From a virus, in IMG/VR virus record IMGVR_UViG_3300030002_000074, positions 1-32,454 of that record: 32,454 nt of DNA; one strand, given 5' to 3'. The notes beneath the pieces were generated by a model. The model was not told the origin of the DNA. It saw only the letters and a program-made list of their open reading frames with translations, and did not search any database. Position 1 is the first letter of the stretch. Each line of letters starts with the position of its first letter. This document shows, in pieces, positions 7,926 through 32,454 of this stretch. The position numbers and the translations under genes were made by a program.

Positions 7926-8068
7926 TACTCGATACTCACTTCAATTTCGGTTCGCATAACGAATGAAGCCAGTTGAATCAACTTTGTGCCAATCCAAAAA
8001 CGAATCTTCATCAACTTTTCGCCACCTTTGATGTTTGCTTTGATGTCAATGATGATTGTGTCTTTCAT
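7925..8068 (-). CDS. Conserved-looking 47-aa small protein
   Basis: The product begins MKDTIIIDIKANIKGG and contains MKIRFWIGTKLIQLASFVM. It has a strong site, AGAAAGGGCAAATATC, directly before ATG 8068. It overlaps the glycosyltransferase stop by four bases and the next ATG by one. A short hydrophobic amphipathic segment (about residues 23-38) could contact a membrane or a partner protein. Function unknown. Confidence 0.65.
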   Translation of the reverse strand: MKDTIIIDIKANIKGGEKLMKIRFWIGTKLIQLASFVMRTEIEVSIE

Positions 8069-8940
8069 GATATTTGCCCTTTCTGGTATGGTTGCAACTG
8101 CCAATTGCCGTCGTCAAGCTTCTTGTATGCTGCAATGGTGCAATTTTCGTTCGGCACAAGCACTTTGCCGTGTTGGTCTGCATGTCCAGCCACTACCGAC
8201 CAATCAATGACGTTGGTGAAGCCTTTTTTGCGAAGTTCGATGCCGTATGTGACATCAACGCTGATACATTCAGCCGACCAATAGAATGTGTGGTCAAGAA
8301 AGTGTTGCATTGGTGTCAGGAAACAATACAAACCGCCGCCATCAATCTTTTCAAATAATGTGGTGCTGTTGTATGGAATCGTTTCAATGGTGGTTGGGTT
8401 GTTGATGTCATCCCATCGCCATGCGCCAATCATGCGGATGCCGTGCCTGCCGACCTGTGCGCCCTCTATGAATCCAACTTTGACGCCTGCTTTGTCTAGT
8501 TCACGATAATCAGCCACAAGCCGTTGCAATGCGCCTGCTTCAATCTGTGTGTCGTCTTCAATCATGAACAACATGTTGCATTGGTCGAATTCTTTGGTTT
8601 TGATGATGGTCTTTTGCAAATCGGTCAACATATCACGGATTCGGTCACGCCTTGTGAACACACGCACTTCTTGCGGTGCGAATCGCTTGGTGTGATGAAT
8701 CTTGTATGGAATAGTCAATTCGTACTTGTTGAATGCGTCAATGACCTGTGATGCGTTGAATTCGTCTGTGTCGATATTGACCAGCAATTGCACATTCAAA
8801 CTGTCACGGTTCAACTTCGCCAACTGCTTTGCCTGCATGTCGATTGACCATCGGCGTGTCAGTGGCAAGACAATCAAAATATCTAGCCGTTGATTATCTG
8901 TTGGAATATCTCTGTGTATAGTGGTTTCAGTGTTTCCCAT
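8065..8940 (-). CDS. Glycosyltransferase, GT-A like
   Basis: The 291-aa protein starts with an RLDILIVLPLTRRW strand near residue 18. It has a DxD-like metal/nucleotide-sugar motif, MLFMIEDDTQIEAG, with acidic residues at 128-130. Later segments KIDGGGLYCFL and FYWSAECISVDVTYGIELRKKGF resemble the acceptor side and the closing acidic motif of GT2-like enzymes. It would transfer a sugar from a nucleotide donor. Start 8940 has AGGAAAGGC upstream despite a 58-base overlap with the preceding gene. Acceptor unknown: host surface glycan, virion protein or teichoic-acid-like polymer. Confidence 0.75.
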   Translation of the reverse strand: MGNTETTIHRDIPTDNQRLDILIVLPLTRRWSIDMQAKQLAKLNRDSLNVQLLVNIDTDEFNASQVIDAFNKYELTIPYKIHHTKRFAPQEVRVFTRRDRIRDMLTDLQKTIIKTKEFDQCNMLFMIEDDTQIEAGALQRLVADYRELDKAGVKVGFIEGAQVGRHGIRMIGAWRWDDINNPTTIETIPYNSTTLFEKIDGGGLYCFLTPMQHFLDHTFYWSAECISVDVTYGIELRKKGFTNVIDWSVVAGHADQHGKVLVPNENCTIAAYKKLDDGNWQLQPYQKGQIS

Positions 8941-9932
8941 TTCAATGCCTTTCCTATTTGTTCAGCTTCTTTGTTCGACCATGCCATGAATTCAGGGTTT
9001 GCAAATTCGCACATCTTCATCGCAAGCCAATTCGGGTCGGTTTCGTGAATATCAATCATTGTGCGTGTCATGAACTCACCTGCTTTGCGTGCGCCGACAA
9101 GCCATTGTTTCGGCAATAGCACGTTGTTTGGTGATACGTCTGGCATCACGACAGGAATTCCAGCCGTCAATGCTTCTTGCACTGGCAAGCACAATCCACC
9201 ATATTTGCGTGGCATGACTAGCACATCACCAGTTTTGTACATGTCGGCATAGTTTTCGATATTATAGATGACTTCCAAATCAATGCTTTTCTGTGCGTTG
9301 ACAATGATGCGGTCTGTTTCGCCGTCGATGCCCTGCGCATAGATTTTGTATTTGAAACGATTGCCACACTTCAATGCTGCTTGAACAAACGTCTTTGTGC
9401 CGTTTCTGTCATGAATTGCTTGCCTACCAGCCACATGAAATATTGTGCGACATTCGCTTATTTCTCTTGACTTGATGTTCGATGCGTCTGTTGGCACTGG
9501 CAAATCAATGACTGGTGCGATATTCAGTGCTTTGACGTCTTCTGTGTGCCATGATGACGGTGCTGCAAGCACGGATGGTGCTTCAATGTCGGTTCGGTTC
9601 AAATAATCAAGAAATTCATAGTTGTATTGCAACACGACTGGCACGCCTTTGCGCTTCGCCTTTTCCATGATGCAATAATTCAATGGCGTTTCGCAAATGA
9701 ACACAATATCAACGTCGTCGGTCAACCATTCCATGTATGAACAATCGGGAATGCCTTTCGCAATCATCACTTCGCCGTCACCGCCATTGAATCGTTCGTG
9801 ATGTGTTTCAACGTGATTCAGTGGCGACAAATCAACCAGCAATGTTTTGTGTGGGTTCATATGGTTGAAAAAGTTTTGCGTCTGAATGCCAAGTCCAGTT
9901 TGCGTTGAATATGCCAACAATCCAATTTTCAT
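8883..9932 (-). CDS. Glycosyltransferase, GT-B fold (GT4-like)
   Basis: The 349-aa protein begins MKIGLLAYSTQTGLGIQTQ, a typical GT-B N-terminal strand-loop. It has the C-terminal donor-site signature DVLVMPRKYGGLCLPVQEALTAGIPVVMPD (around residues 240-270). This corresponds to the E-x7-E region of retaining GT4 enzymes, with Gly-Gly in place of the first Glu and Glu retained in QEAL. That substitution could alter donor choice or mechanism. The second Rossmann domain starts near TIFHVAGRQAIHDRNGTK. It overlaps the Fic gene by four bases. Confidence 0.82.
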   Translation of the reverse strand: MKIGLLAYSTQTGLGIQTQNFFNHMNPHKTLLVDLSPLNHVETHHERFNGGDGEVMIAKGIPDCSYMEWLTDDVDIVFICETPLNYCIMEKAKRKGVPVVLQYNYEFLDYLNRTDIEAPSVLAAPSSWHTEDVKALNIAPVIDLPVPTDASNIKSREISECRTIFHVAGRQAIHDRNGTKTFVQAALKCGNRFKYKIYAQGIDGETDRIIVNAQKSIDLEVIYNIENYADMYKTGDVLVMPRKYGGLCLPVQEALTAGIPVVMPDVSPNNVLLPKQWLVGARKAGEFMTRTMIDIHETDPNWLAMKMCEFANPEFMAWSNKEAEQIGKALKWETLKPLYTEIFQQIING

Positions 9933-10513
9933 GATTCTTCACCGTCGCTTTCTGGTTGGTCAAAAATCCAACCTGCATTTGATAGTTTCACAACACGGTC
10001 ATTTTCAAATAGTCGATAATACGCTTCACGGTCTTTTTGCGTGTCGGCGTTGTACCTGAATGGCTTCACACCACGTTTCTTGCATATGAACCAGTAAATC
10101 ATGCGCCCTGTGCGCCCATTGCCGTCAACGAATGGATGAATGCTTTCAAAGCGGATGTGTGCGACCAATGGCGTCATTTTCGGCACGTCAAGCAACCAAT
10201 TGCGCATCAAGTCTTCAACTAGCGAATAATCTGGTGCGATTCTGCCGCCAACCTGCACGTTTGTGATGTTTCCAGCCATGCCACGATACCAGCCACGTTG
10301 ATTTGGCTGCAAGTTGTCTTGGTGTAGCGTGATAATCTTTTGAACACGCATGATGTCCGTGTGGCGCAATACTGTCAGTTGTTCAAGATACGCCCACGCC
10401 AAAAGCGATTGTTCAATTTCTTCGTCATCGTATATGCCCTCAATGGCATTGCTTGATTTGATATACTTGCGAATATCGAAATCATTGTCACGTCGTTGTT
10501 GTCTGTTCACCAT
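9929..10513 (-). CDS. Fic-domain protein (probable AMP transferase)
   Basis: The 194-aa protein contains the complete Fic motif HPFVDGNGRTGR with catalytic His126. It also has an N-terminal inhibitory-helix signature, SSNAIEGI (residues 20-27), with Glu25 positioned to block ATP as in class II Fic proteins. Members usually transfer AMP to Ser, Thr or Tyr. The target is unknown. I place the start at ATG 10513, which has GAAAGAGGTATTGAA upstream; the open frame continues to 10558 without a site. It lies between a methyltransferase and a glycosyltransferase, with ATGA coupling to the latter. Confidence 0.9.
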   Translation of the reverse strand: MVNRQQRRDNDFDIRKYIKSSNAIEGIYDDEEIEQSLLAWAYLEQLTVLRHTDIMRVQKIITLHQDNLQPNQRGWYRGMAGNITNVQVGGRIAPDYSLVEDLMRNWLLDVPKMTPLVAHIRFESIHPFVDGNGRTGRMIYWFICKKRGVKPFRYNADTQKDREAYYRLFENDRVVKLSNAGWIFDQPESDGEES

Positions 10514-10514
10514 T

Positions 10515-11204
10515 TCAATACCTCTTTCCGAATAACATGCCGCCGTTTGCACCGACATACTTGATTTGATGTGTCTTGCTCAATTTCTCAACTATTGCAC
10601 CAAGGTCGGTGGCGTGTTGGTCATATTCAAGCGTGATGTATCGGCAAAGATTCAACGTGCTTTCTTGTGCGCCAAGAATGACATCACCCTCTAGCCCCTC
10701 AATGTCAACTTTCAGCACGTCGATGAATTCCAAATTGTGTTCTTTGAATAAATCATCAAGTGTGGTGTATTCGACTTGTTGCAAATCTTTGCGGTCACTG
10801 CTTCGTGCATCACCGTCACAAAGCAATCTTGAATCACCGTGTTCATTGGTCATGTATGCGTGTAATGGCTGATATGTATGTTTGCCGACAACTGCACGTT
10901 CATCAACGATGAATTCACAATCTGGCACGTTCTTTTGATTGTCGGCGACGTTTTTGCGCAATAATTCCACGTTGTGTGGTTCAGGTTCAACGGCAATCAC
11001 TTTCTTTGCGCCCAATTTGGCTGCGTATAGCGTGAATGCGCCGATATTCGCACCAATATCAATGACAATGCCTGTATCGGTCAAATCGCCGTCAAAGACT
11101 TCATATACGTTTTCACACCAGATTTCACGCACTACGACGGCATCTGATTGTGAACCATCACGACCATTCAGAATGAATCGTGGGTCATGTGCAAATATTT
11201 TCAT
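10515..11204 (-). CDS. FkbM-family methyltransferase
   Basis: The 229-aa protein has the SAM-binding glycine loop VIDIGANIGAFTLYAAK (residues 47-63). The ribose-binding acidic residue follows in VIAVEPEP (Glu73). The FkbM-family C-terminal signature is DVLKVDIEGLEGDVILGA. FkbM enzymes O-methylate sugars and related acceptors. It is coupled to the upstream glycosyltransferase (four-base overlap) and has AAAGGGGAAATC before its ATG. Capping a glycan by methylation is the likely job in this context. Confidence 0.88.
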   Translation of the reverse strand: MKIFAHDPRFILNGRDGSQSDAVVVREIWCENVYEVFDGDLTDTGIVIDIGANIGAFTLYAAKLGAKKVIAVEPEPHNVELLRKNVADNQKNVPDCEFIVDERAVVGKHTYQPLHAYMTNEHGDSRLLCDGDARSSDRKDLQQVEYTTLDDLFKEHNLEFIDVLKVDIEGLEGDVILGAQESTLNLCRYITLEYDQHATDLGAIVEKLSKTHQIKYVGANGGMLFGKRY

Positions 11205-12148
11205 GATTTCCCCTTTACTGTTTCAATTATTGTTTGCAACCGATTTGTGTATGTGTGGTCACGCTTCGTGCGTTCGTGTCCAGCCATTTGAATTTGCTTG
11301 CGTGCCGTCGAATTTGCCAATGCGGTATCAATGATTTTTTTCAGATGTTCAAAATTTCCGTATTGATAGAACATCACTTCATTGACTTCGCTGAATTGTG
11401 TTTCGATTCCTGTGATGTATGGGTGAACCATGAAGCCGCCACGACCAGTGGTTTCATAGATGCGGTCTGACCAATAATGTGGGTACTTGAAATCAAGACA
11501 AAGCGTATCACCGACAACAACTTTGGCGGTAGCATATAAGTCATTCAATTGCTTGCCACGAATCGCCATGATGCCATCGTTGCCGAAGTGACCGAACCTG
11601 CGACCATATGTCTGTTCAAGCCATGCAATCAACTGTGGTCGGTATTGCCATTCATTGTGGTATCGTCGTGAACCAACAAAAACCACGTCGAAATCAAATC
11701 GTGGGTCGTATTCGCCAATATAGCATTCATCTTCAAACACACCTGCTGGCAAATAGTGACCGATGGTCGATGTGTTTTCGTTCAACCAATCAGCCATCAG
11801 CTTGTCAACGGTGAAGAAATGTTTGACTTTGAAATATGCGCTGTCTTCGTATTCAGTCCAGCGGCGCAATCCCATGTATAAATCAAGATGATATGCAACC
11901 GTCGGAATGTTGGCACGGTCAAGCCTGCGCAATACCTCTTGCATCGTGCGGTTGCCGTTCAAATCCCAACCATGTGTGTGAACCCAAAAGAACATGTCGC
12001 ACTGCATAGCGATGCGGTACACGTCGTCTGTGGTCACTCTTGGTTCTTGCATACGAATGACTTGATGACCAAGTTTTTCAAACGTCTTGGCATAATGTGA
12101 TTCACTGGTGAAGTCAACTTGGAAATTCCCCAAAAATGCAATTTTCAT
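11201..12148 (-). CDS. Glycosyltransferase, CgeB-like (GT-B)
   Basis: The 315-aa protein begins MKIAFLGNFQVDFTSESHYAK. It has an N-terminal half with FFWVHTHGWD and a C-terminal donor-binding signature, SDRIYETTGRGGFMVHPYITGIE (around residues 225-248). This is characteristic of the CgeB/Glyco_trans_1_2 group found in spore-coat and phage clusters. The E in YETTGRGG is the usual donor-contact Glu. It is the first enzyme of the modification operon, right after two small membrane proteins. The start has GAAAGGGTATTCCA upstream. Confidence 0.82.
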   Translation of the reverse strand: MKIAFLGNFQVDFTSESHYAKTFEKLGHQVIRMQEPRVTTDDVYRIAMQCDMFFWVHTHGWDLNGNRTMQEVLRRLDRANIPTVAYHLDLYMGLRRWTEYEDSAYFKVKHFFTVDKLMADWLNENTSTIGHYLPAGVFEDECYIGEYDPRFDFDVVFVGSRRYHNEWQYRPQLIAWLEQTYGRRFGHFGNDGIMAIRGKQLNDLYATAKVVVGDTLCLDFKYPHYWSDRIYETTGRGGFMVHPYITGIETQFSEVNEVMFYQYGNFEHLKKIIDTALANSTARKQIQMAGHERTKRDHTYTNRLQTIIETVKGKS

Positions 12149-12288: not shown

Positions 12289-12527
12289 TGCCTGATTCCC
12301 CAAAGTGCAACGCCTGCGATGAATAATGTCAATGCAATCAATACGACTGATGACCAGAATTCTTTGTCTTCAAATATGTCAAAGAATCGTTCGCCTGCGG
12401 TGATTTGTCTGCCATAATACTGTTTGATTTTCAATCTGCCATCTGGCACATCCAGCAATTCAATTGCTGATATTTTGTCATTGAAGAACCGTATGGCTTG
12501 CAATGTCTTTGTTTTTGATTGGCTCAT
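12285..12527 (-). CDS. 80-aa tail-anchored membrane protein
   Basis: The protein has a soluble N-terminal part of about 55 residues (SKTKTLQAIRFFNDKI, YYGRQITAGERFFD) and one C-terminal membrane segment, SSVVLIALTLFIAGVALWG, at about 59-77. It is the first gene after promoter E, with GCGAGGGTATAAATA before ATG. I do not recognise the family. The leader upstream contains the GACGATATG motif followed directly by TAG, a start-stop pair. Confidence 0.75.
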   Translation of the reverse strand: MSQSKTKTLQAIRFFNDKISAIELLDVPDGRLKIKQYYGRQITAGERFFDIFEDKEFWSSVVLIALTLFIAGVALWGIRQ

Positions 12528-12534
12528 TATTTAT

Positions 12535-12557
12535 ACCCTCGCTTTCTACATATCGTC
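12535..12557 (-). promoter_or_regulatory. Leader element complementary to the upstream terminator loop
   Basis: The minus-strand leader reads GACGATATG, seven bases, CGAGGGT. The reverse complement of exactly this pattern, with the same 7-base spacing, lies in the terminator loop at 12618-12640. The element includes the ribosome binding site of the 80-aa gene (CGAGGG) and an ATG-TAG minimal ORF. Pairing between the two RNAs, or within a read-through RNA, would mask the ribosome binding site. Confidence 0.5.
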
Positions 12558-12569
12558 TATGTTGATACT

Positions 12570-12598
12570 ATTCTATACTTTCAAACCATTTATGGCAA
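12570..12598 (-). promoter_or_regulatory. Promoter E (TTGCCA-17-TAGAAT)
   Basis: The minus strand has -35 TTGCCA at 12593-12598, a 17-bp spacer and -10 TAGAAT at 12570-12575, placing the start near 12563. The -10 lies within a variant of the AAAGTAT-AGA-AAAGTAT box found upstream of promoters A-D. It would drive the membrane/glycosyltransferase/Fic operon down to the HAD gene. Confidence 0.7.
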
Positions 12599-12599
12599 C

Positions 12600-12661
12600 A
12601 AAAAAGCCTGTCCGAATGACGATATGCAATTCACGAGGGTGAAAGGTCGGACAGGCATTTT
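12600..12661 (-). terminator. Terminator with a 31-nt regulatory-looking loop
   Basis: A perfect 10-bp stem (GCCTGTCCGA/TCGGACAGGC; 12647-12656 and 12606-12615) is followed on the minus strand by a T run. It ends the early operon 33 bases after the transglycosylase stop. The loop, 12616-12646, is unusually long. It contains the reverse complement of the start-codon motif ATGACGATATGC and of the GAGGGTGAAAGG-type ribosome binding site. Confidence 0.9.
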
Positions 12662-12670
12662 TATCGTCAT
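12616..12670 (-). ncRNA. Candidate pseudoknot/antiterminator or antisense element
   Basis: In the minus-strand RNA the nine bases ATGACGATA (12662-12670), just 5' of the terminator stem, are perfectly complementary to TATCGTCAT in its loop (12616-12624). The two pairings interleave, so they form either a pseudoknot or an alternative fold that could affect termination. The same loop could pair with starts of several early and late genes. This is read from sequence only; function is inferred. Confidence 0.45.
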
Positions 12671-12693
12671 ACGTTCATTTTATCTGTTTATGG

Positions 12694-14881: not shown

Positions 14882-14905
14882 GATTGCCGCTATTTTGCGG
14901 CAATC
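14882..14905 (-). promoter_or_regulatory. Intercistronic hairpin over a stop codon
   Basis: GATTGCCGC and GCGGCAATC pair perfectly (9 bp) around a six-base loop that holds the stop codon of the upstream gene. No T run follows, so it is not a terminator. It sits directly before the GGGGG ribosome binding site of the next gene. Likely roles are mRNA stability or translation coupling. Confidence 0.6.
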
Positions 14906-15504
14906 TGCTTTTCTTCAACTACTTCGACACCATCGACCAATGTGCCGTTCATGACATCTGTGCGAACTGCTGATTTGATAGCATCAAGCACTTTTTCGTC
15001 ATTCAAGTATTTTGCTGGTATTTTTGTAACATCAACGATTTTGACGACACGAACCATGCGGAAATTGATTGAACCTTTGTTGCCCTCGACAGATGAACCC
15101 ATAGTTTCGATGTCATCCATTTTGCGCATTGCGGTATCAGTTCGCATTGTGCCTTTTTCAACTCGTGCTTCAAGTTTGGCGGCTGCTTCAGCGGCTTTGC
15201 GGTCAACCTCGTTTGAATATGAAATCATTTCTGATTTGATATACTTTTCGGCTTTTTCCAAGTCCGTTGATAGTGGCTTGTATTCAGCATTGATGTCTTT
15301 GACTTCTTTGTTCAATGGGTCAACACGCAATTTGCGTTGCTTTTCCATTGCCTTGCTGATGTCTTTGATGATTGATAGTGTGTCGGTTGCGACCACCATT
15401 GTGTCATTGTCGGTGATTTTGAAACCCTCGACTTGCTTTTGTACAGTGGTGATTTTGCGCTTGAATGGAACAATCGACACTGTGTTGTTTTCTTGTTCTT
15501 TCAT
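14890..15504 (-). CDS. Coiled-coil recombination-associated phage protein
   Basis: The 204-aa protein has a long coiled-coil middle (about residues 45-115, including DISKAMEKQRKLRVDPLNKEVKDINAEY). Its C-terminal domain reads VRVVKIVDVTKIPAKYLNDEKVLDAIKSAV then GVEVVEEKQIA. That C-terminal layout (V.D...IP..YL.DE) is what I recall from uncharacterised phage proteins encoded next to RecT and exonuclease genes. It is the first gene after promoter A and carries the GAAAGG-GACGAT-ATG start context. A partner or regulator of the recombination enzymes is an inference. Confidence 0.72.
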   Translation of the reverse strand: MKEQENNTVSIVPFKRKITTVQKQVEGFKITDNDTMVVATDTLSIIKDISKAMEKQRKLRVDPLNKEVKDINAEYKPLSTDLEKAEKYIKSEMISYSNEVDRKAAEAAAKLEARVEKGTMRTDTAMRKMDDIETMGSSVEGNKGSINFRMVRVVKIVDVTKIPAKYLNDEKVLDAIKSAVRTDVMNGTLVDGVEVVEEKQIAAK

Positions 15505-15521
15505 ATCGTCATAATCCTTTC
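15502..15521 (-). promoter_or_regulatory. Conserved start context GAAAGG-ATTAT-GACGAT-ATG
   Basis: Ribosome binding site and start codon of the coiled-coil protein. GACGAT immediately before ATG is shared by six genes in this genome. Confidence 0.7.
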
Positions 15522-15536
15522 ATTGATTATATATTC

Positions 15537-15581
15537 AGTATAGCAAAGCATGTTTCAATTGTCAATACTTTTCTATACTTT
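15537..15581 (-). promoter_or_regulatory. Promoter A with tandem AAAGTAT box
   Basis: The minus strand has -35 TTGACA at 15560-15565, a 17-bp spacer and -10 TATACT at 15537-15542, a near-perfect sigma70-type promoter. Directly upstream and overlapping lies AAAGTAT-AGA-AAAGTAT (ending at 15581). It drives the recombination/early operon down to the terminator at 12.6 kb. Confidence 0.9.
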
Positions 15582-15861
15582 AAGATGATAGACGTATCAA
15601 TTCGGCTTCAACTATACGATGCAAATCACCAGCCGTGTGATAGTTTCCACGCCAATTTCGCTTGATAACATGCACACGACCATTCGTCGGGTATACATCA
15701 ACGACACGTTCAATTCGATATTGATATGGTGTCATTTGTTTGAATTCCCAATCCATGGTTGCGCACAATTCTTTGATGTCGGCGGTTCGATTCCCACGCC
15801 ACCATTCTTTGGCTTCAGCACCGTGAAGCCCACTTGCTGAATTGCGCTTGACGTTACCCAC
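15580..15861 (-). CDS. 93-aa conserved-looking early protein
   Basis: The soluble protein begins MGNVKRNSASGLHGAEAKEWW and has MDWEFKQMTPYQYRIERVVDVYPTNGR. This pattern of Q-(Y/F)-R-I and DVYPTNGR is familiar from small uncharacterised phage proteins. The start is GTG at 15861, with AGGG upstream and an 8-base overlap with the exonuclease stop. Its stop codon abuts promoter A. No function assigned. Confidence 0.65.
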   Translation of the reverse strand: MGNVKRNSASGLHGAEAKEWWRGNRTADIKELCATMDWEFKQMTPYQYRIERVVDVYPTNGRVHVIKRNWRGNYHTAGDLHRIVEAELIRLSS

Positions 15862-16474
15862 GCCACAACCCTGCCAATTTCATGCCAATAGATAACACTT
15901 CGCAACGGTCATGCGCCCATTTCTTGATTGCTGCGATGTCCATCAAGCCAACTGCTTTTTCATATTTTTCGTACCCGACAATTTCGGTATAGTCGGCGTT
16001 CCAAATCTCAACGAAATACACATACTTTTTGATGCGTATATTGTGAACGCCAAGTTGGAATGAATAGAACGGCAATTGCTTTGAACTTGCATATCGCCTT
16101 GCACCGCCTGCGCCTTTCACCATCGTTTTGTAATCAATCACAATGGCTTCGGGTACATTCACGCCATCTGGTCGGCTATGAATAACAATGTTTTTGAATA
16201 GTTCGGTGGCGAACTCTTTTTCAGCGTGTGTGATTTGCAAATCTTTGTATTCGGGAAATGCTTCACGAAATACGATTGGCAACATGCCAGTTTCTTCGGA
16301 TTCTTTTTGCCACATATTGTGTCGGGTTTCGCCGAACGTCAAAATGTCATTCTTGAATCGTTCTTTTTCGCCCAACTGTTCTTTGATGATGTTTTCAACC
16401 TGCTTCGGTGTGGCACGCATCAAATCTGTGAAGCGTGTGTGAAGCTTCCCATCGTTTTTGATATTGTATTGCAT
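15854..16474 (-). CDS. RecB/Cas4-like PD-(D/E)XK exonuclease
   Basis: The 206-aa protein has the ordered motifs of RecB-family nucleases: FGETRHNMW (His52), Glu87 region, SRPDGV (Asp103), IVIDYKT (Asp114, Lys116), then the diagnostic QLPFY (Gln133-x3-Tyr137). It would resect DNA ends so that the RecT protein next to it can load on single strands. ATG 16474 carries the GACGAT context, and the 15 bases at 16468-16482 are perfectly complementary to the terminator loop RNA at 12.6 kb. It lies five bases after recT. Confidence 0.85.
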   Translation of the reverse strand: MQYNIKNDGKLHTRFTDLMRATPKQVENIIKEQLGEKERFKNDILTFGETRHNMWQKESEETGMLPIVFREAFPEYKDLQITHAEKEFATELFKNIVIHSRPDGVNVPEAIVIDYKTMVKGAGGARRYASSKQLPFYSFQLGVHNIRIKKYVYFVEIWNADYTEIVGYEKYEKAVGLMDIAAIKKWAHDRCEVLSIGMKLAGLWRG

Positions 16475-16488
16475 ATCGTCATGCTTTC
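16472..16488 (-). promoter_or_regulatory. Conserved start context GAAAGC-AT-GACGAT-ATG
   Basis: Start region of the exonuclease. The GAAAGC-GACGAT distance is the shortest of the six examples. This start region has the longest perfect match (15 bases) to the reverse complement of the terminator loop. Confidence 0.65.
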
Positions 16489-17219: not shown

Positions 17220-17456
17220 TTAGTTTTTGAAAGCCTTGTGGAATACTGCGACGAACATTCCTGCTGCGGTGATAAGCATGTAATATGCAACCACTACCGC
17301 CACAATGTGCGTGAAGTTATTCAATAAGAGGTATGCTGTCAAGAAACGTGCTACTACCTCAACCAGTGAAACAATCGTTTTGATTATTGCTGGCACTTGC
17401 TTTTTTTGTGATGCAACTGGTGCATCTTCTTTTTGTGTTTTGTTGTTGTTTGCCAT
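17220..17456 (-). CDS. 78-aa membrane protein
   Basis: After a hydrophilic N terminus rich in Asn, Gln and Lys, two hydrophobic segments (about residues 33-51 and 53-71, LTAYLLLNNFTHIVAVVVAYYMLITAAGMF) form a hairpin-type membrane protein. It is the first gene of the promoter B unit, upstream of recT, and carries the GACGAT-ATG start context. Function unknown. Confidence 0.75.
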   Translation of the reverse strand: MANNNKTQKEDAPVASQKKQVPAIIKTIVSLVEVVARFLTAYLLLNNFTHIVAVVVAYYMLITAAGMFVAVFHKAFKN

Positions 17457-17474
17457 ATCGTCATTTATCCTTTC
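17454..17474 (-). promoter_or_regulatory. Conserved start context GAAAGG-ATAAAT-GACGAT-ATG
   Basis: Start region of the 78-aa membrane protein, matching the six-gene motif. Confidence 0.7.
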
Positions 17475-17497: not shown

Positions 17498-17542
17498 AGT
17501 GTAGCAAAGATTGTTTCAATTGTCAATACTTTTCTATACTTT
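17498..17542 (-). promoter_or_regulatory. Promoter B with tandem AAAGTAT box
   Basis: The minus strand has -35 TTGACA at 17521-17526, 17 bp, -10 TACACT at 17498-17503. The box AAAGTAT-AGA-AAAGTAT is at 17526-17542, overlapping the -35. It drives the membrane protein, recT and exonuclease genes. Confidence 0.88.
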
Positions 17543-17588
17543 CATTTGTGCAACAGTAGTGACCGACCACACCGCTGCTGTCACAATT

Positions 17589-19540: not shown

Positions 19541-19867
19541 TTATTGTTCATCACGATGATTGTCTGCATCCATGTCGGCTTTCGCTTCGACTGCATCAGC
19601 CGTTGGGTCGCCGTCAACTTGACATTCACAATCGTCGCAAACATATATTGAAGATTCGGTCTGGTAGTGACCTTGTTCGCCCAAATGGTCTTCAGTGACC
19701 GATTCGACGTGCGTGTGTTCGTGTTCGTGGCTATCTGAAGCCCCTGTGATGGGGCATTCCCATATTCCAGCGTATTGATGCCCGAACGTGTACAAAGTGG
19801 CTGTGTGTTCGCTTCGTGGATGTTCAGGGCATTGTATTTGCTTTGTGTTCGGTTCGTTGGTTTGCAT
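19541..19867 (-). CDS. Cys/His-rich early protein, possible zinc binder
   Basis: The 108-aa protein has CPEH near residue 13, WECP near 37 and a His-rich middle (SHEHEHTHVESVTEDH). YVCDDCECQVDGDP with a C-x2-C-x-C cluster follows, then an acidic tail. Metal binding is likely. It is the first gene after promoter C, so it should be expressed very early, and carries the GACGAT-ATG start context. A second frame is open over the same DNA; I prefer this one because of its ribosome binding site and Cys pairs. Confidence 0.65.
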   Translation of the reverse strand: MQTNEPNTKQIQCPEHPRSEHTATLYTFGHQYAGIWECPITGASDSHEHEHTHVESVTEDHLGEQGHYQTESSIYVCDDCECQVDGDPTADAVEAKADMDADNHRDEQ

Positions 19868-19886
19868 ATCGTCAAATATACCTTTC
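19865..19886 (-). promoter_or_regulatory. Conserved start context GAAAGG-TATATTT-GACGAT-ATG
   Basis: Start region of the Cys/His-rich early protein. TGACGATATGCAA (13 bases) matches the reverse complement of the terminator loop at 12.6 kb. Confidence 0.7.
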
Positions 19887-19901: not shown

Positions 19902-19946
19902 ATAATATCAAGCCGTGCATTGATTGTCAATACTTTTCTATACTTT
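19902..19946 (-). promoter_or_regulatory. Promoter C with tandem AAAGTAT box
   Basis: The minus strand has -35 TTGACA at 19925-19930, 17 bp, -10 TATTAT at 19902-19907. The AAAGTAT-AGA-AAAGTAT box extends to 19946 and starts five bases after the terminator T run. It opens the early operon. Confidence 0.88.
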
Positions 19947-19950
19947 ACGA

Positions 19951-20084: not shown

Positions 20085-20129
20085 AGTATAGCACTATATG
20101 TCATATTTGTCAATACTTTTCTGTACTTT
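20085..20129 (-). promoter_or_regulatory. Promoter D with tandem AAAGTA(T/C) box
   Basis: The minus strand has -35 TTGACA at 20108-20113, 17 bp, -10 TATACT at 20085-20090. The upstream box differs from the others at one base (AAAGTAC). It drives only the 26-codon/small RNA unit. Confidence 0.88.
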
Positions 20130-20136
20130 CCCCTTT

Positions 20137-20613: not shown

Positions 20614-21786
20614 CTAGTTGATTCTTATTTGTTGACCGACGAATATCAAGTTCGGGTTGCTGATTCCGTTGCGTTGCGCAAGTATCTGGTATGTCGTGCC
20701 ATATTTGGCGGCAATACCTGAAAGCGTTTCGCCCCTTGATACCGTGTGAATTGTGCCACCGCTGGTTGTGGTGGTTGCTGTGCCTTGGACTGTTATCACC
20801 TGACCGACCTGAATCAGATTCGGGTTCGTGATGCCGTTGATTTGTGCAAGCACCTGATAGGTTGTGCCAAACTTTGCGGCGATTCCTGACAATGTGTCGC
20901 CTGATACGACTGTGTATGTCTTGGCGTTCGATGCTGGTGCTGGCGTTGGTGCTGGTGTCGAACCGCTGGTTGGTACTTTGATGACCTGACCGACATTGAT
21001 GACGTTCGGGTTTGCAATTCCGTTCGATGCGGCAAGTGCTTGATATGATGTGCCGAACTTGGCTGCGATGCCCGAAAGTGTATCGCCTGCGACAACTACA
21101 TATTCACCAGTGATTGCGCTTGGTGCGTTTGTCTGTGGTGCTGATGGTTGAACTGTTACCGCTTGACCGCCACCGTATGCGACGAATGCTGATTGGTCGC
21201 CATAGAATAGATTCATGTCAACGGTGTTTTCTGTGACGCCTGCGACGTTCGCACGGCTTGTGTATTGCCACATAATGATTGAAAGCGTTGCAATGCTTGG
21301 TGGATTTCCTGCGCTTGCTACATCACCGCCATTCATGCCATATTTGGCAACCCATGCGCCGATGTTGCGGTCTTTGATTGGCTGAAGATTACCAACAAAG
21401 CGTGCTTGGTTTGAATAGATGATGATTGTGCGCCCTGTACGTTCCTTGATACGGTCTGCGAATGCGCAAACGAATGACACGTTGACCACGGCTTCGTTTT
21501 CGTCGTCAAGCACCAATGCTTCACCATCACGCAAATCGCCAATGGCTGACAAGAATGCGTCGGCTTGCTGTGCTGCCGTTCCTGATGCGCCTTTGTACCA
21601 ATAGAACCAAATCGGCACACCACATCGGCGTGCTTCGTTTTTGTTTTGTGTACACTTTGGGTCATAGTAGATGCCTGCATCTGCACCACCTGCTTTGATG
21701 ACTACCCCTTGAATTGCTGTTTTGAAAGCATCCCAATTGATTGTGCCTTGCCATCGGCTAATATCGGCAACGGTTATTTGTGACAT
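20614..21786 (-). CDS. Endolysin: GH25 muramidase with three LysM domains
   Basis: The 390-aa protein has an N-terminal GH25 domain (residues 3-205) with [11 protein letters not shown] (Asp8), LVLDDENE (Asp94, Asp95, Glu96 region), [14 protein letters not shown] and a final VDMNLFYG. Three LysM repeats follow at about 228-271, 290-333 and 346-389, separated by Pro/Thr/Ser linkers including [12 protein letters not shown]25 enzymes cut between MurNAc and GlcNAc; LysM binds peptidoglycan glycan. No signal peptide, so export depends on a holin. Start carries GAAAGGGGAAAGACGAT-ATG. Confidence 0.95.
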
Positions 21787-21803
21787 ATCGTCTTTCCCCT
21801 TTC
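21784..21803 (-). promoter_or_regulatory. Conserved start context GAAAGG-GGAAA-GACGAT-ATG
   Basis: Start region of the endolysin, the only lysis gene with the six-gene motif. Confidence 0.65.
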
Positions 21804-29870: not shown

Positions 29871-30550
29871 TCACATTTCCTTTTTCAACTGCTCAATTCC
29901 GCTGTTATCATTGAAATCTTTCAATATTTCTAGTATATCACGACTGCCGTCAACATAAGCACGACGCAATTCATTTGCCTGTTGCTGTTTCATGTGTGGG
30001 TATGCTGCGACGCCCAACAGTTTCAAATGTTCTTCAGAATCCAGTTTGAAAGCCTGATTCAACATAGAAAAGAACCAGTGCGCTGGTTCTTTCATCAGTG
30101 TTGTCATTGTATAACCTTGATAGAATCGCAAGAAATATGCGACCATTTTAATCAAGCGGACACTGTTTTTTTTTGGTCGTTGTCAAGCGCAATACCACGC
30201 TTTTGCAATTCTTTGCTGTCGGCTGGTTGTGCTGAATCAACAAGCAAGTCAATCAATGCAAGCAATTGTTGCATGTTCAACTTGTATTGTTTCAACTCTG
30301 GCACGACGTTCGCCAATCCGTCTTTCAGTTTGTCCATCAGCATCGACATGTCATCGACGTTGTTGGCATCCAAACCGCCTTGCTGATATTTCTGTACTTG
30401 ACCGCCTAATTTGGCAAGCTCAATCAAATCTTCAAGTGATGGTGGTGAAAACTCAACAATGTTGCCTTGAATCTTCACACGCTTTTTTTGTTGCGACAGT
30501 GTGTCCAAGTCCAAGTCAAATGTCGGGTCAATTGTTTGTGGTTGTGTCAT
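29871..30550 (-). CDS. Tail assembly chaperone, frameshifted GT form
   Basis: The product reads the upstream chaperone to codons 127-128 (AAA AAA) and then shifts back one base. It continues as NSVRLIKMVAYFLRF to the end of the downstream frame at 29871, giving about 226 aa. The slip site is a run of nine A on the minus strand (30166-30174), in phase A-AAA-AAA. Lambda G/GT-type chaperones use the same arrangement just before the tape measure gene. The downstream frame has no good start of its own: its first codon would be TTG overlapping the stop. Confidence 0.8.
30152..30550 (-). CDS. Tail assembly chaperone (G form)
   Basis: The 132-aa protein is helical, with DLIELAKLGGQVQKYQQGG and a central MLMDKLKDGLANVVPELKQYKLNMQQLLALIDLLVD. 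Position before the tape measure plus the slippery A run near its end define it. It coats the tape measure during tail assembly. Start carries the GACGAT-ATG context. Confidence 0.8.
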   Translation of the reverse strand: MTQPQTIDPTFDLDLDTLSQQKKRVKIQGNIVEFSPPSLEDLIELAKLGGQVQKYQQGGLDANNVDDMSMLMDKLKDGLANVVPELKQYKLNMQQLLALIDLLVDSAQPADSKELQKRGIALDNDQKKTVSA

Positions 30551-30568
30551 ATCGTCATGATACCTTTC
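30548..30568 (-). promoter_or_regulatory. Conserved start context GAAAGG-TATCAT-GACGAT-ATG
   Basis: Start region of the tail chaperone, the only structural-gene example of the six-gene motif. Confidence 0.65.
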
Positions 30569-31676: not shown

Positions 31677-32266
31677 TATATAAGCACCTCATGATATTTG
31701 TCGAACGTGGCTTGAATGACACTGTTTGAAGCGGTGGCATCGGCGAATGTTCGGCTGTACCCCTCAATTGATTCTGATTTCAATGATAATGATGTTGTTT
31801 GACCAAGTGCGTTGGCTGCAAGCCATGATGCTGCGTATGCAATGTCTGCTGGTACTGCGCCACCGCCAAAGAATGCGGTCAATGCGATGTTTGCCACTCT
31901 GTGCGTGCATCCTGTACCCCATGGCGTGCTTCGGCGTTGGAAATACGTCTTCACTACATCATTGCGTGGTCGGGCTTCATAATCGCCTGTATTGACGACC
32001 TCAATGACGTTTTCAAGTTCATCAACGTATGCAAGCACGAATGCGTGTGTGCTGTCTGATATGAAAGGGTCAACATCAAGCAACTTGCTGTGTTCGACAT
32101 CATAATATCTGGTTGATTGCGTTGTCGGTGTTTCAAACTTGCGACGTGTCAGTGATTCAATATATGCGTCAACAGATGCCAATAATGCTGGCAATGCTGT
32201 GACTTCGGCGGCGGTCAATGGTCGCCCCAAAACCCCCTCAACTGATGCTTGTGTTGCGTATGACAT
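31676..32266 (-). CDS. Head-tail connector, gp6-like
   Basis: The 196-aa helical protein has the connector plan. VEGVLGRPLTAAEVTALPALLASVDAYIESLTRR at the N terminus is followed by a beta segment (RYYDVEHSKLLDVDPFI). A C-terminal helical pair follows (PADIAYAASWLAANALGQ; LKSESIEGYSRTFA). It docks under the portal and receives the stopper. It overlaps the 52-aa ORF upstream by 29 bases. AGAAAGGGTGAAAAAACGAA precedes the ATG. Confidence 0.82.
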   Translation of the reverse strand: MSYATQASVEGVLGRPLTAAEVTALPALLASVDAYIESLTRRKFETPTTQSTRYYDVEHSKLLDVDPFISDSTHAFVLAYVDELENVIEVVNTGDYEARPRNDVVKTYFQRRSTPWGTGCTHRVANIALTAFFGGGAVPADIAYAASWLAANALGQTTSLSLKSESIEGYSRTFADATASNSVIQATFDKYHEVLI

Positions 32267-32396
32267 TTCGTTTTTTCACCCTTTCTTGACGTTGTTTTTT
32301 TACGACATCAGGTTCAAGAATCATTCGATGTGTGATGTCATCCCTTGTGATGGCACGGCGTTTCGGTTGTGATTTCTCTTGCTGTGTGTTACCCAT
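32238..32396 (-). CDS. 52-aa basic leader ORF of the connector/tail operon
   Basis: The product begins MGNTQQEKSQPKRRAITRDD and is strongly basic (VKKQRQERVKKRN), probably disordered or nucleic-acid binding. It starts at ATG 32396 without a ribosome binding site. A TACAAT hexamer lies six bases upstream, suggesting a leaderless transcript. Its end overlaps the connector start by 29 bases. Function unknown; an assembly or tail-tube partner is possible. Confidence 0.6.
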   Translation of the reverse strand: MGNTQQEKSQPKRRAITRDDITHRMILEPDVVKKQRQERVKKRNVIRNTSIS

Positions 32397-32454
32397 GCCA
32401 CTATTGTACTACAAAACCATAAACAAAAAGAGGTTGATTGCTCAACCCCTCTTT
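32249..32454. repeat. Terminal redundancy, right copy
   Basis: Second copy of positions 1-206, differing only at 32376. It includes the terminator hairpin (32422-32454) and the leaderless -10 candidate (32403-32408) as duplicates, not separate elements. Confidence 0.93.

Follow-up and report, generated by a model that had tools for sequence, protein, structure and literature searches.

Phage-borne antisense RNAs are among the closest described parallels to the locus reported here. The c4 RNA of P1 and P7 and the sar RNA of P22 hinder ribosome binding at the start regions of phage mRNAs (PMC12197685). In P4, the CI RNA sits in a seqA-CI-seqC arrangement that has been compared with the IsrK RNA (PMC4825925). 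The phage antisense RNAs covered by the reviews consulted mostly target one phage gene or host genes. The best reading of the present locus is that its predicted RNA would work like c4, sar or the P4 CI RNA, and what would be new is a target motif carried by many genes.

The window, meaning the whole stretch of DNA that was analysed, is a complete-looking phage record of 32,454 bp with its genes on the minus strand. It has a 206-bp direct terminal repeat (1-206 and 32249-32454), and since terminal repeats are also present in two related phages, G001 and G004, all three are probably complete genomes. No close GenBank relative of the window was found by DNA, its terminase is about 25% identical to those of known phages, and a search for terminase relatives in bacterial genomes returned none. 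The terminator of interest lies between a lytic transglycosylase-like gene (13257-12694) and a function-unassigned gene starting at 12527. The late side of the window also has a cluster (8065-12148) of glycosyltransferases, an FkbM methyltransferase and a Fic-domain protein. The locus was compared between the window and four IMG/VR phages: G003 (L002), G002 (L004/L005), G001 (L006) and G004 (L027). Aligned DNA of G001, G002 and G004 is about 67-84% identical to the window, and that of G003 is 85-97% identical in the main aligned pieces.

A preliminary description of this DNA had reported a 10-bp stem closing a 31-nt loop, with the sequence ATGACGATA just 5' of the stem, and both are there. The stem arms, GCCUGUCCGA (12656-12647) and UCGGACAGGC (12615-12606) on the minus strand, are followed by a U6 run and enclose the loop CCUUUCACCCUCGUGAAUUGCAUAUCGUCAU. 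The 3' half of this loop is UUGCAUAUCGUCAU, the exact antisense of AUGACGAUAUGCAA, and is referred to below as the seed. Two parts of the element were absent from the earlier account: an inner hairpin, UUCAC/GUGAA, and a -10-like box that would make the element a separate small-RNA gene, with a poor -35. The same hairpin, with its inner hairpin and single-stranded seed, is predicted in every homologue (shuffle z-scores of -4.4 to -6.1). Opening the seed has a computed cost of 0.8 kcal/mol, and the net energy of its pairing with seven sense sites in the window is predicted at -8.4 to -15.0 kcal/mol, the best being those of the exonuclease and gene 19867. The element thus has two marks of phage base-pairing small RNAs, namely a conserved structured RNA with an intrinsic terminator and a conserved unpaired seed of at least 8 nt complementary to ribosome-binding or start regions. 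A search of the whole window against Rfam, which includes c4, IsrK and other phage RNAs, gave no match at the gathering threshold; the best match below it was STnc370 (24.1 versus 54 bits, E 0.43). A coding role was considered and rejected, as the 26-codon open reading frame from ATGACGATA and a plus-strand frame are both disrupted by loop indels in the relatives. No other conserved long-loop terminator of this kind was found in the window or the relatives' genomes. The features are listed in Table 1.

Table 1. Positions of the terminator element, the next operon's control region and the start-codon motifs (window coordinates unless a contig is named)
Feature	Position	Strand	Remark
Leader GACGATATG-N7-CGAGGGT of gene 12527-12285	12535..12557	(-)	pairing site plus Shine-Dalgarno
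Next-operon promoter TTGCCA-17-TAGAAT	12570..12598	(-)	-35 directly after terminator U-run
Predicted small RNA, ~71 nt, from AUGACGAUA to U-run end	12600..12670	(-)	conservation and fold
Terminator hairpin, 10-bp stem and 31-nt loop	12606..12656	(-)	16-bp stem in G001/G004
Seed UUGCAUAUCGUCAU	12616..12629	(-)	unpaired in fold and identical in five phages; antisense of AUGACGAUAUGCAA
Inner hairpin UUCAC-CCUC-GUGAA within loop	12630..12643	(-)	apical loop variable except CUC
Sense copy AUGACGAUA (DNA ATGACGATA)	12662..12670	(-)	5' of stem; invariant in five phages
-10-like box TAAAAT, predicted small-RNA promoter	12677..12682	(-)	6 nt before AUGACGAUA
ATGACGAT-ATG, start of gene 15504-14890 (Gp157/Gam-like)	15502..15512	(-)	
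ATGACGATATGCAAT, start of PD-(D/E)XK exonuclease-like gene 16474-15854	16468..16482	(-)	15 nt complementary to loop
ATGACGAT-ATG, start of gene 17456-17220	17454..17464	(-)	
TGACGATATGCAA, start of gene 19867-19541	19862..19874	(-)	13 nt complementary to loop
GACGAT-ATG, start of GH25/LysM lysin gene 21786-20614	21784..21792	(-)	
ATGACGAT-ATG, start of gene 30550-30152	30548..30558	(-)	
GAAAGTATAGAAAAGTATTGACA box copies	12560-12583, 15560-15583, 17521-17544, 19925-19948, 20108-20131	minus strand sequence	
Shared start cassettes	L027 1627; L040/L041 (G004); L052 9766; L021 (G001) 15942		

The element has one architecture in all five phages, TANAAT-N6-AUGACGAUA-stem-CGACC-UUCAC-loop-GUGAA-UUGCAUAUCGUCAU-stem-U-run-GUUGCCA, after which comes the next promoter. 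All 14 seed positions and all 9 positions of the 5' copy are invariant, in contrast to the neighbouring spacer (42-65% identical to the window) and the first codons of the next gene (49%). The stem behaves differently: four of its pairs are altered on both sides, and still 132 of 132 cells are paired across the five phages, a percentage reached by none of 500 shuffles and by no slid control. In G001 and G004 the stem is longer and of different sequence, yet fully paired. What is conserved is thus the structure of the stem and the sequence of the loop. The box TANAAT stands exactly 6 nt before AUGACGAUA in every phage, with five of six positions invariant (the third varies), and the 6 nt following it have no position in common. 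The inner hairpin's apical loop differs between phages in both length and sequence (CCUC, UCUC, UUCUC, CACUC, CCACUC) with a constant CUC end. Because the seed never varies, the five phages hold no compensatory seed-target changes. Scans by pattern and by protein for more distant relatives in which the seed has changed returned only the same phages at this locus, and the pattern scans were incomplete, since they missed G004 despite its exact pattern. A genome scan with a 19-mer gave matches (Kosakonia, Phytobacter and others) that appear to be coding sequence matched by chance.

The 5' copy has two possible partners, which bears on the preliminary suggestion that ATGACGATA pairs with TATCGTCAT in the loop in an interleaved fashion, as a pseudoknot or antiterminator. 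Such a switch, in which AUGACGAUA would pair with the loop during transcription and keep the terminator from closing, draws on a perfect 9-bp complement whose two copies are invariant in all five phages. That same invariance leaves no covariation to be seen, and the pairing forced alone reaches -14.0 kcal/mol versus -22.7 kcal/mol. The full pseudoknot would be sterically hard to form, with linkers of 4-5 and 0 nt. In addition, the 5' copy has another conserved partner: through CGAUA it can pair with the tail UGUUG, and this outer helix has one compensatory change, AU to GC (columns 70-145), which is among the four double-sided changes counted above. We therefore regard the switch as very unlikely.

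The other partner of the loop is a motif at gene starts. The core GACGAU-AUG spans the start codons of six window genes and recurs in the downstream leader; its copy at the element's 5' edge is AUGACGAUA. In DNA, GACGATATG has eight exact copies in the window. Six of these fall on start codons and share one register, GACGAT standing directly before the ATG, mostly after a GAAAGG Shine-Dalgarno. The matches of 15 nt at the exonuclease start and 13 nt at gene 19867, as first described, are both correct. Whether shuffled loops would do as well depends on the measure. A perfect complement to the loop of at least 9 nt is found at 8 window start regions, more than in any of 3000 shuffled loops (mean 0.40, maximum 7), while a lax whole-loop energy score (duplexfold, internal loops allowed) is equalled by about 11-26% of shuffled loops. 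As the contiguous test separates and the lax score does not, the signal is a contiguous motif and not overall stickiness.

Across six contigs, 25 start sites have the motif A(19)T(22)GACGAT-ATG. It is followed by C at 9 of the 25, nearly always as CAA, which is the extent of the unpaired seed. Most orthologous genes retain the motif although they have diverged. Orthologs with the motif were found for gene 30550 (G001, G004, L026), gene 17456 (G001, G002, G004, L052), the exonuclease (G001, G002) and gene 15504 (G002). The 15504 orthologs of G001 and G004 retain only ACGAUAUG, and the G004 exonuclease is without the motif. The preliminary description had pointed to relatives that might keep the stem and lose the loop or the start motifs; in the four relatives it is instead the stem sequence that changes, with the loop and the start motifs retained. 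Complementarity of the loop to several start regions and to the next leader is therefore well supported as a conserved sequence logic of antisense pairing.

Motif-bearing starts do not always stay with one gene. In the window, G001 and G004, the proteins encoded after the 19867-type start are different, and the exonuclease start is borne at the same place by non-homologous genes of 52 aa in G004 and 83 aa in L052 (17-nt match). Whole start cassettes, made up of the Shine-Dalgarno, the spacer, GACGAT-ATG and the first codons, are common to non-homologous genes, as if swapped apart from the gene body. A strong hairpin, GATTGCCGC/GCGGCAATC, lies at 14882-14905 directly before gene 14881, and in G004 the gene that follows it, of 94 aa, carries the full ATGACGATATGCAAT start. 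Shared cassettes would also fit a motif that is a recombination boundary (a shared gene-start linker), or a preferred start context that spread as modules were exchanged, of which the loop gained an inverted copy; conserved boundary sequences are discussed in the literature on mosaic phages. This leaves unexplained both the invariant inverted copy inside a compensating stem and the conserved leader copy, which is not a gene start, and we hold it to be improbable.

Another explanation is that the motif is the operator of a translational repressor, a phage RNA-binding protein like RegA of T4. The 5' AUGACGAUA and leader copies would then be its sites, and the loop complement a decoy or means of auto-control. 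The sites do overlap the AUG, as those of T4 RegA do (PMC3014915), and the register of the motif is fixed relative to the start codon. However, a protein reading the sense strand would have no need of an antisense copy, 14 nt long, exact and invariant, presented in a terminator loop, and no RegA homologue was found among the scanned subset of proteins. A protein reader is thus unlikely, if slightly less so than a recombination boundary.

The control region of the next operon holds the remaining sense copy. The early claim that the loop is the reverse complement of the leader GACGATATG-N7-CGAGGGT is borne out, as this arrangement occurs exactly twice in the window, in the leader (12557-12535, minus strand) and, as its reverse complement, in the loop (12618-12640, plus strand); the shuffle expectation is 0.08 matches even with three mismatches allowed. 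Among the five phages, 22 of 23 aligned window positions of the leader are invariant, with an extra 1-nt insertion in G002, giving AUAGACGAUAUGYAGAAA(A)GCGAGGGU. As for the proposed ACCCTCG:CGAGGGT pairing, its core CUCG:CGAG is kept in all five, whereas the ACC lies in the variable apical loop, and the pairing over its full length is weakly supported. In the window (12551-12546), the leader GACGATATG runs directly into TAG, a start-stop; the relatives have ATG CAG. Short upstream frames in the leader, of 1-17 codons, are not conserved. The leader copy is thus conserved though it is no gene start, so the motif is more than start-codon context. In G004 the promoter before the leader is changed, and its distance to the leader appears to be kept. 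A 22-24-nt box, GAAAGTATAGAAAAGTATTGACA, contains AGTAT twice, 10 bp apart. It overlaps the -35 of four strong promoters, and at the leader promoter 12570 it is shifted and forms the -10; it is possibly a shared operator.

The leader also allows another role for the loop, acting in cis only. The loop would matter only in the read-through transcript, where its pairing with the leader (GACGAUAUG and CGAG) would conceal the Shine-Dalgarno of gene 12527. The mRNAs from promoter 12570 would be without the loop and translated, and the other start-codon copies would be coincidental or have another role. The complement between leader and loop is colinear in the window (9 + 7 bp with the same spacing), and their pairing is the minimum free energy fold of the read-through RNA in the window and G001, where by this model it can hide the leader Shine-Dalgarno. 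There is also a known precedent in gene e of T4, whose read-through RNA hides a Shine-Dalgarno (PMC3014915). Against this, the terminator fold remains the minimum free energy fold in G003, G002 and G004, and a role in cis does not account for the 25 start codons on six contigs that carry the loop complement, one third of them over the whole seed. We consider a purely cis role rather unlikely, although it is the strongest of the alternatives.

The reading we favour, and think probable from conservation and predicted pairing, is that an antisense RNA of about 70 nt pairs with start regions, represses translation and insulates the downstream operon. The terminator between an early/lysis operon and a late operon would double as a regulatory RNA, made either from the promoter ending at 12677 or as the leftover 3' end of the upstream operon. 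We infer that this RNA is made and stable, and its fold would comprise the terminator stem, the inner hairpin and, as a single-stranded seed, the 14 nt UUGCAUAUCGUCAU. In trans, this seed would pair with (AU)GACGAUAUG(CAA), which spans the start codon in at least six phage genes, and with the copy of the motif that the next operon's mRNA carries at its 5' end. Such pairing would block 30S binding and repress translation. Where transcription continues past the terminator, the loop could also pair with the leader of its own transcript and mask the Shine-Dalgarno there. The timing would presumably be a shift from early to late expression; the targets are early genes plus the lysin, so a single timing logic is not obvious.

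A broader and more speculative possibility, which we find somewhat less than evenly likely, is a phage-wide RNA regulon. An antisense RNA carried by a terminator and flanked by sense copies, as in P4 CI, would read an 11-14-nt start-codon tag, and genes would join or leave by gain or loss of the tag, giving temporal control by RNA only. If true, one phage RNA acting on a conserved tag at many phage genes would be an RNA analogue of the RegA system of T4, and coordinated shut-off would be explained with no protein involved. The locus supplies exact sites at which this can be tested: one seed, six start codons and one leader. In other uncultured phages, a comparison of terminator loops with start regions would be worthwhile.

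Compared to known systems, the locus resembles in layout the P4 CI RNA (seqA-seqB-seqC) and the Gifsy-1 IsrK RNA, both phage-borne, in which an antisense segment lies between upstream and downstream sense copies on one transcript, and a short terminated RNA is accompanied by a read-through mRNA with a hidden ribosome-binding site (PMC4825925). The corresponding order here, AUGACGAUA, loop and GACGAUAUG, is present in all five phages. It differs in that an intrinsic-terminator loop forms the antisense segment and that six start codons far from it also bear the sense motif; there is no sign of an immunity role, and no sequence kinship was found. Like the 3' UTR-derived small RNAs such as SdhX, it has a conserved seed near an operon's 3'-end terminator that could pair with the mRNAs of other operons (PMC9438474), but here the seed is phage-borne, lies within the terminator loop itself and has its targets in the same phage. 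The c4 RNA of P1 and P7 is likewise an antisense RNA with loop complements that cover the ribosome-binding and start region of a phage mRNA (PMC12197685). Its target is one mRNA (ant), whereas here an 11-14-nt target is repeated on many genes. The P22 sar and lambda OOP RNAs are also small antisense RNAs acting on phage mRNA, with sar blocking translation initiation, and they are described with single targets (ant and cII; PMC12197685) in place of the several dispersed ones predicted here. As in the T4 RegA regulon, a set of phage mRNAs is marked by a site overlapping the AUG, through which the T4 set is shut off together (PMC3014915). The T4 regulator is a protein whose sites are loosely conserved, while the site described here is the exact complement of a predicted phage RNA.
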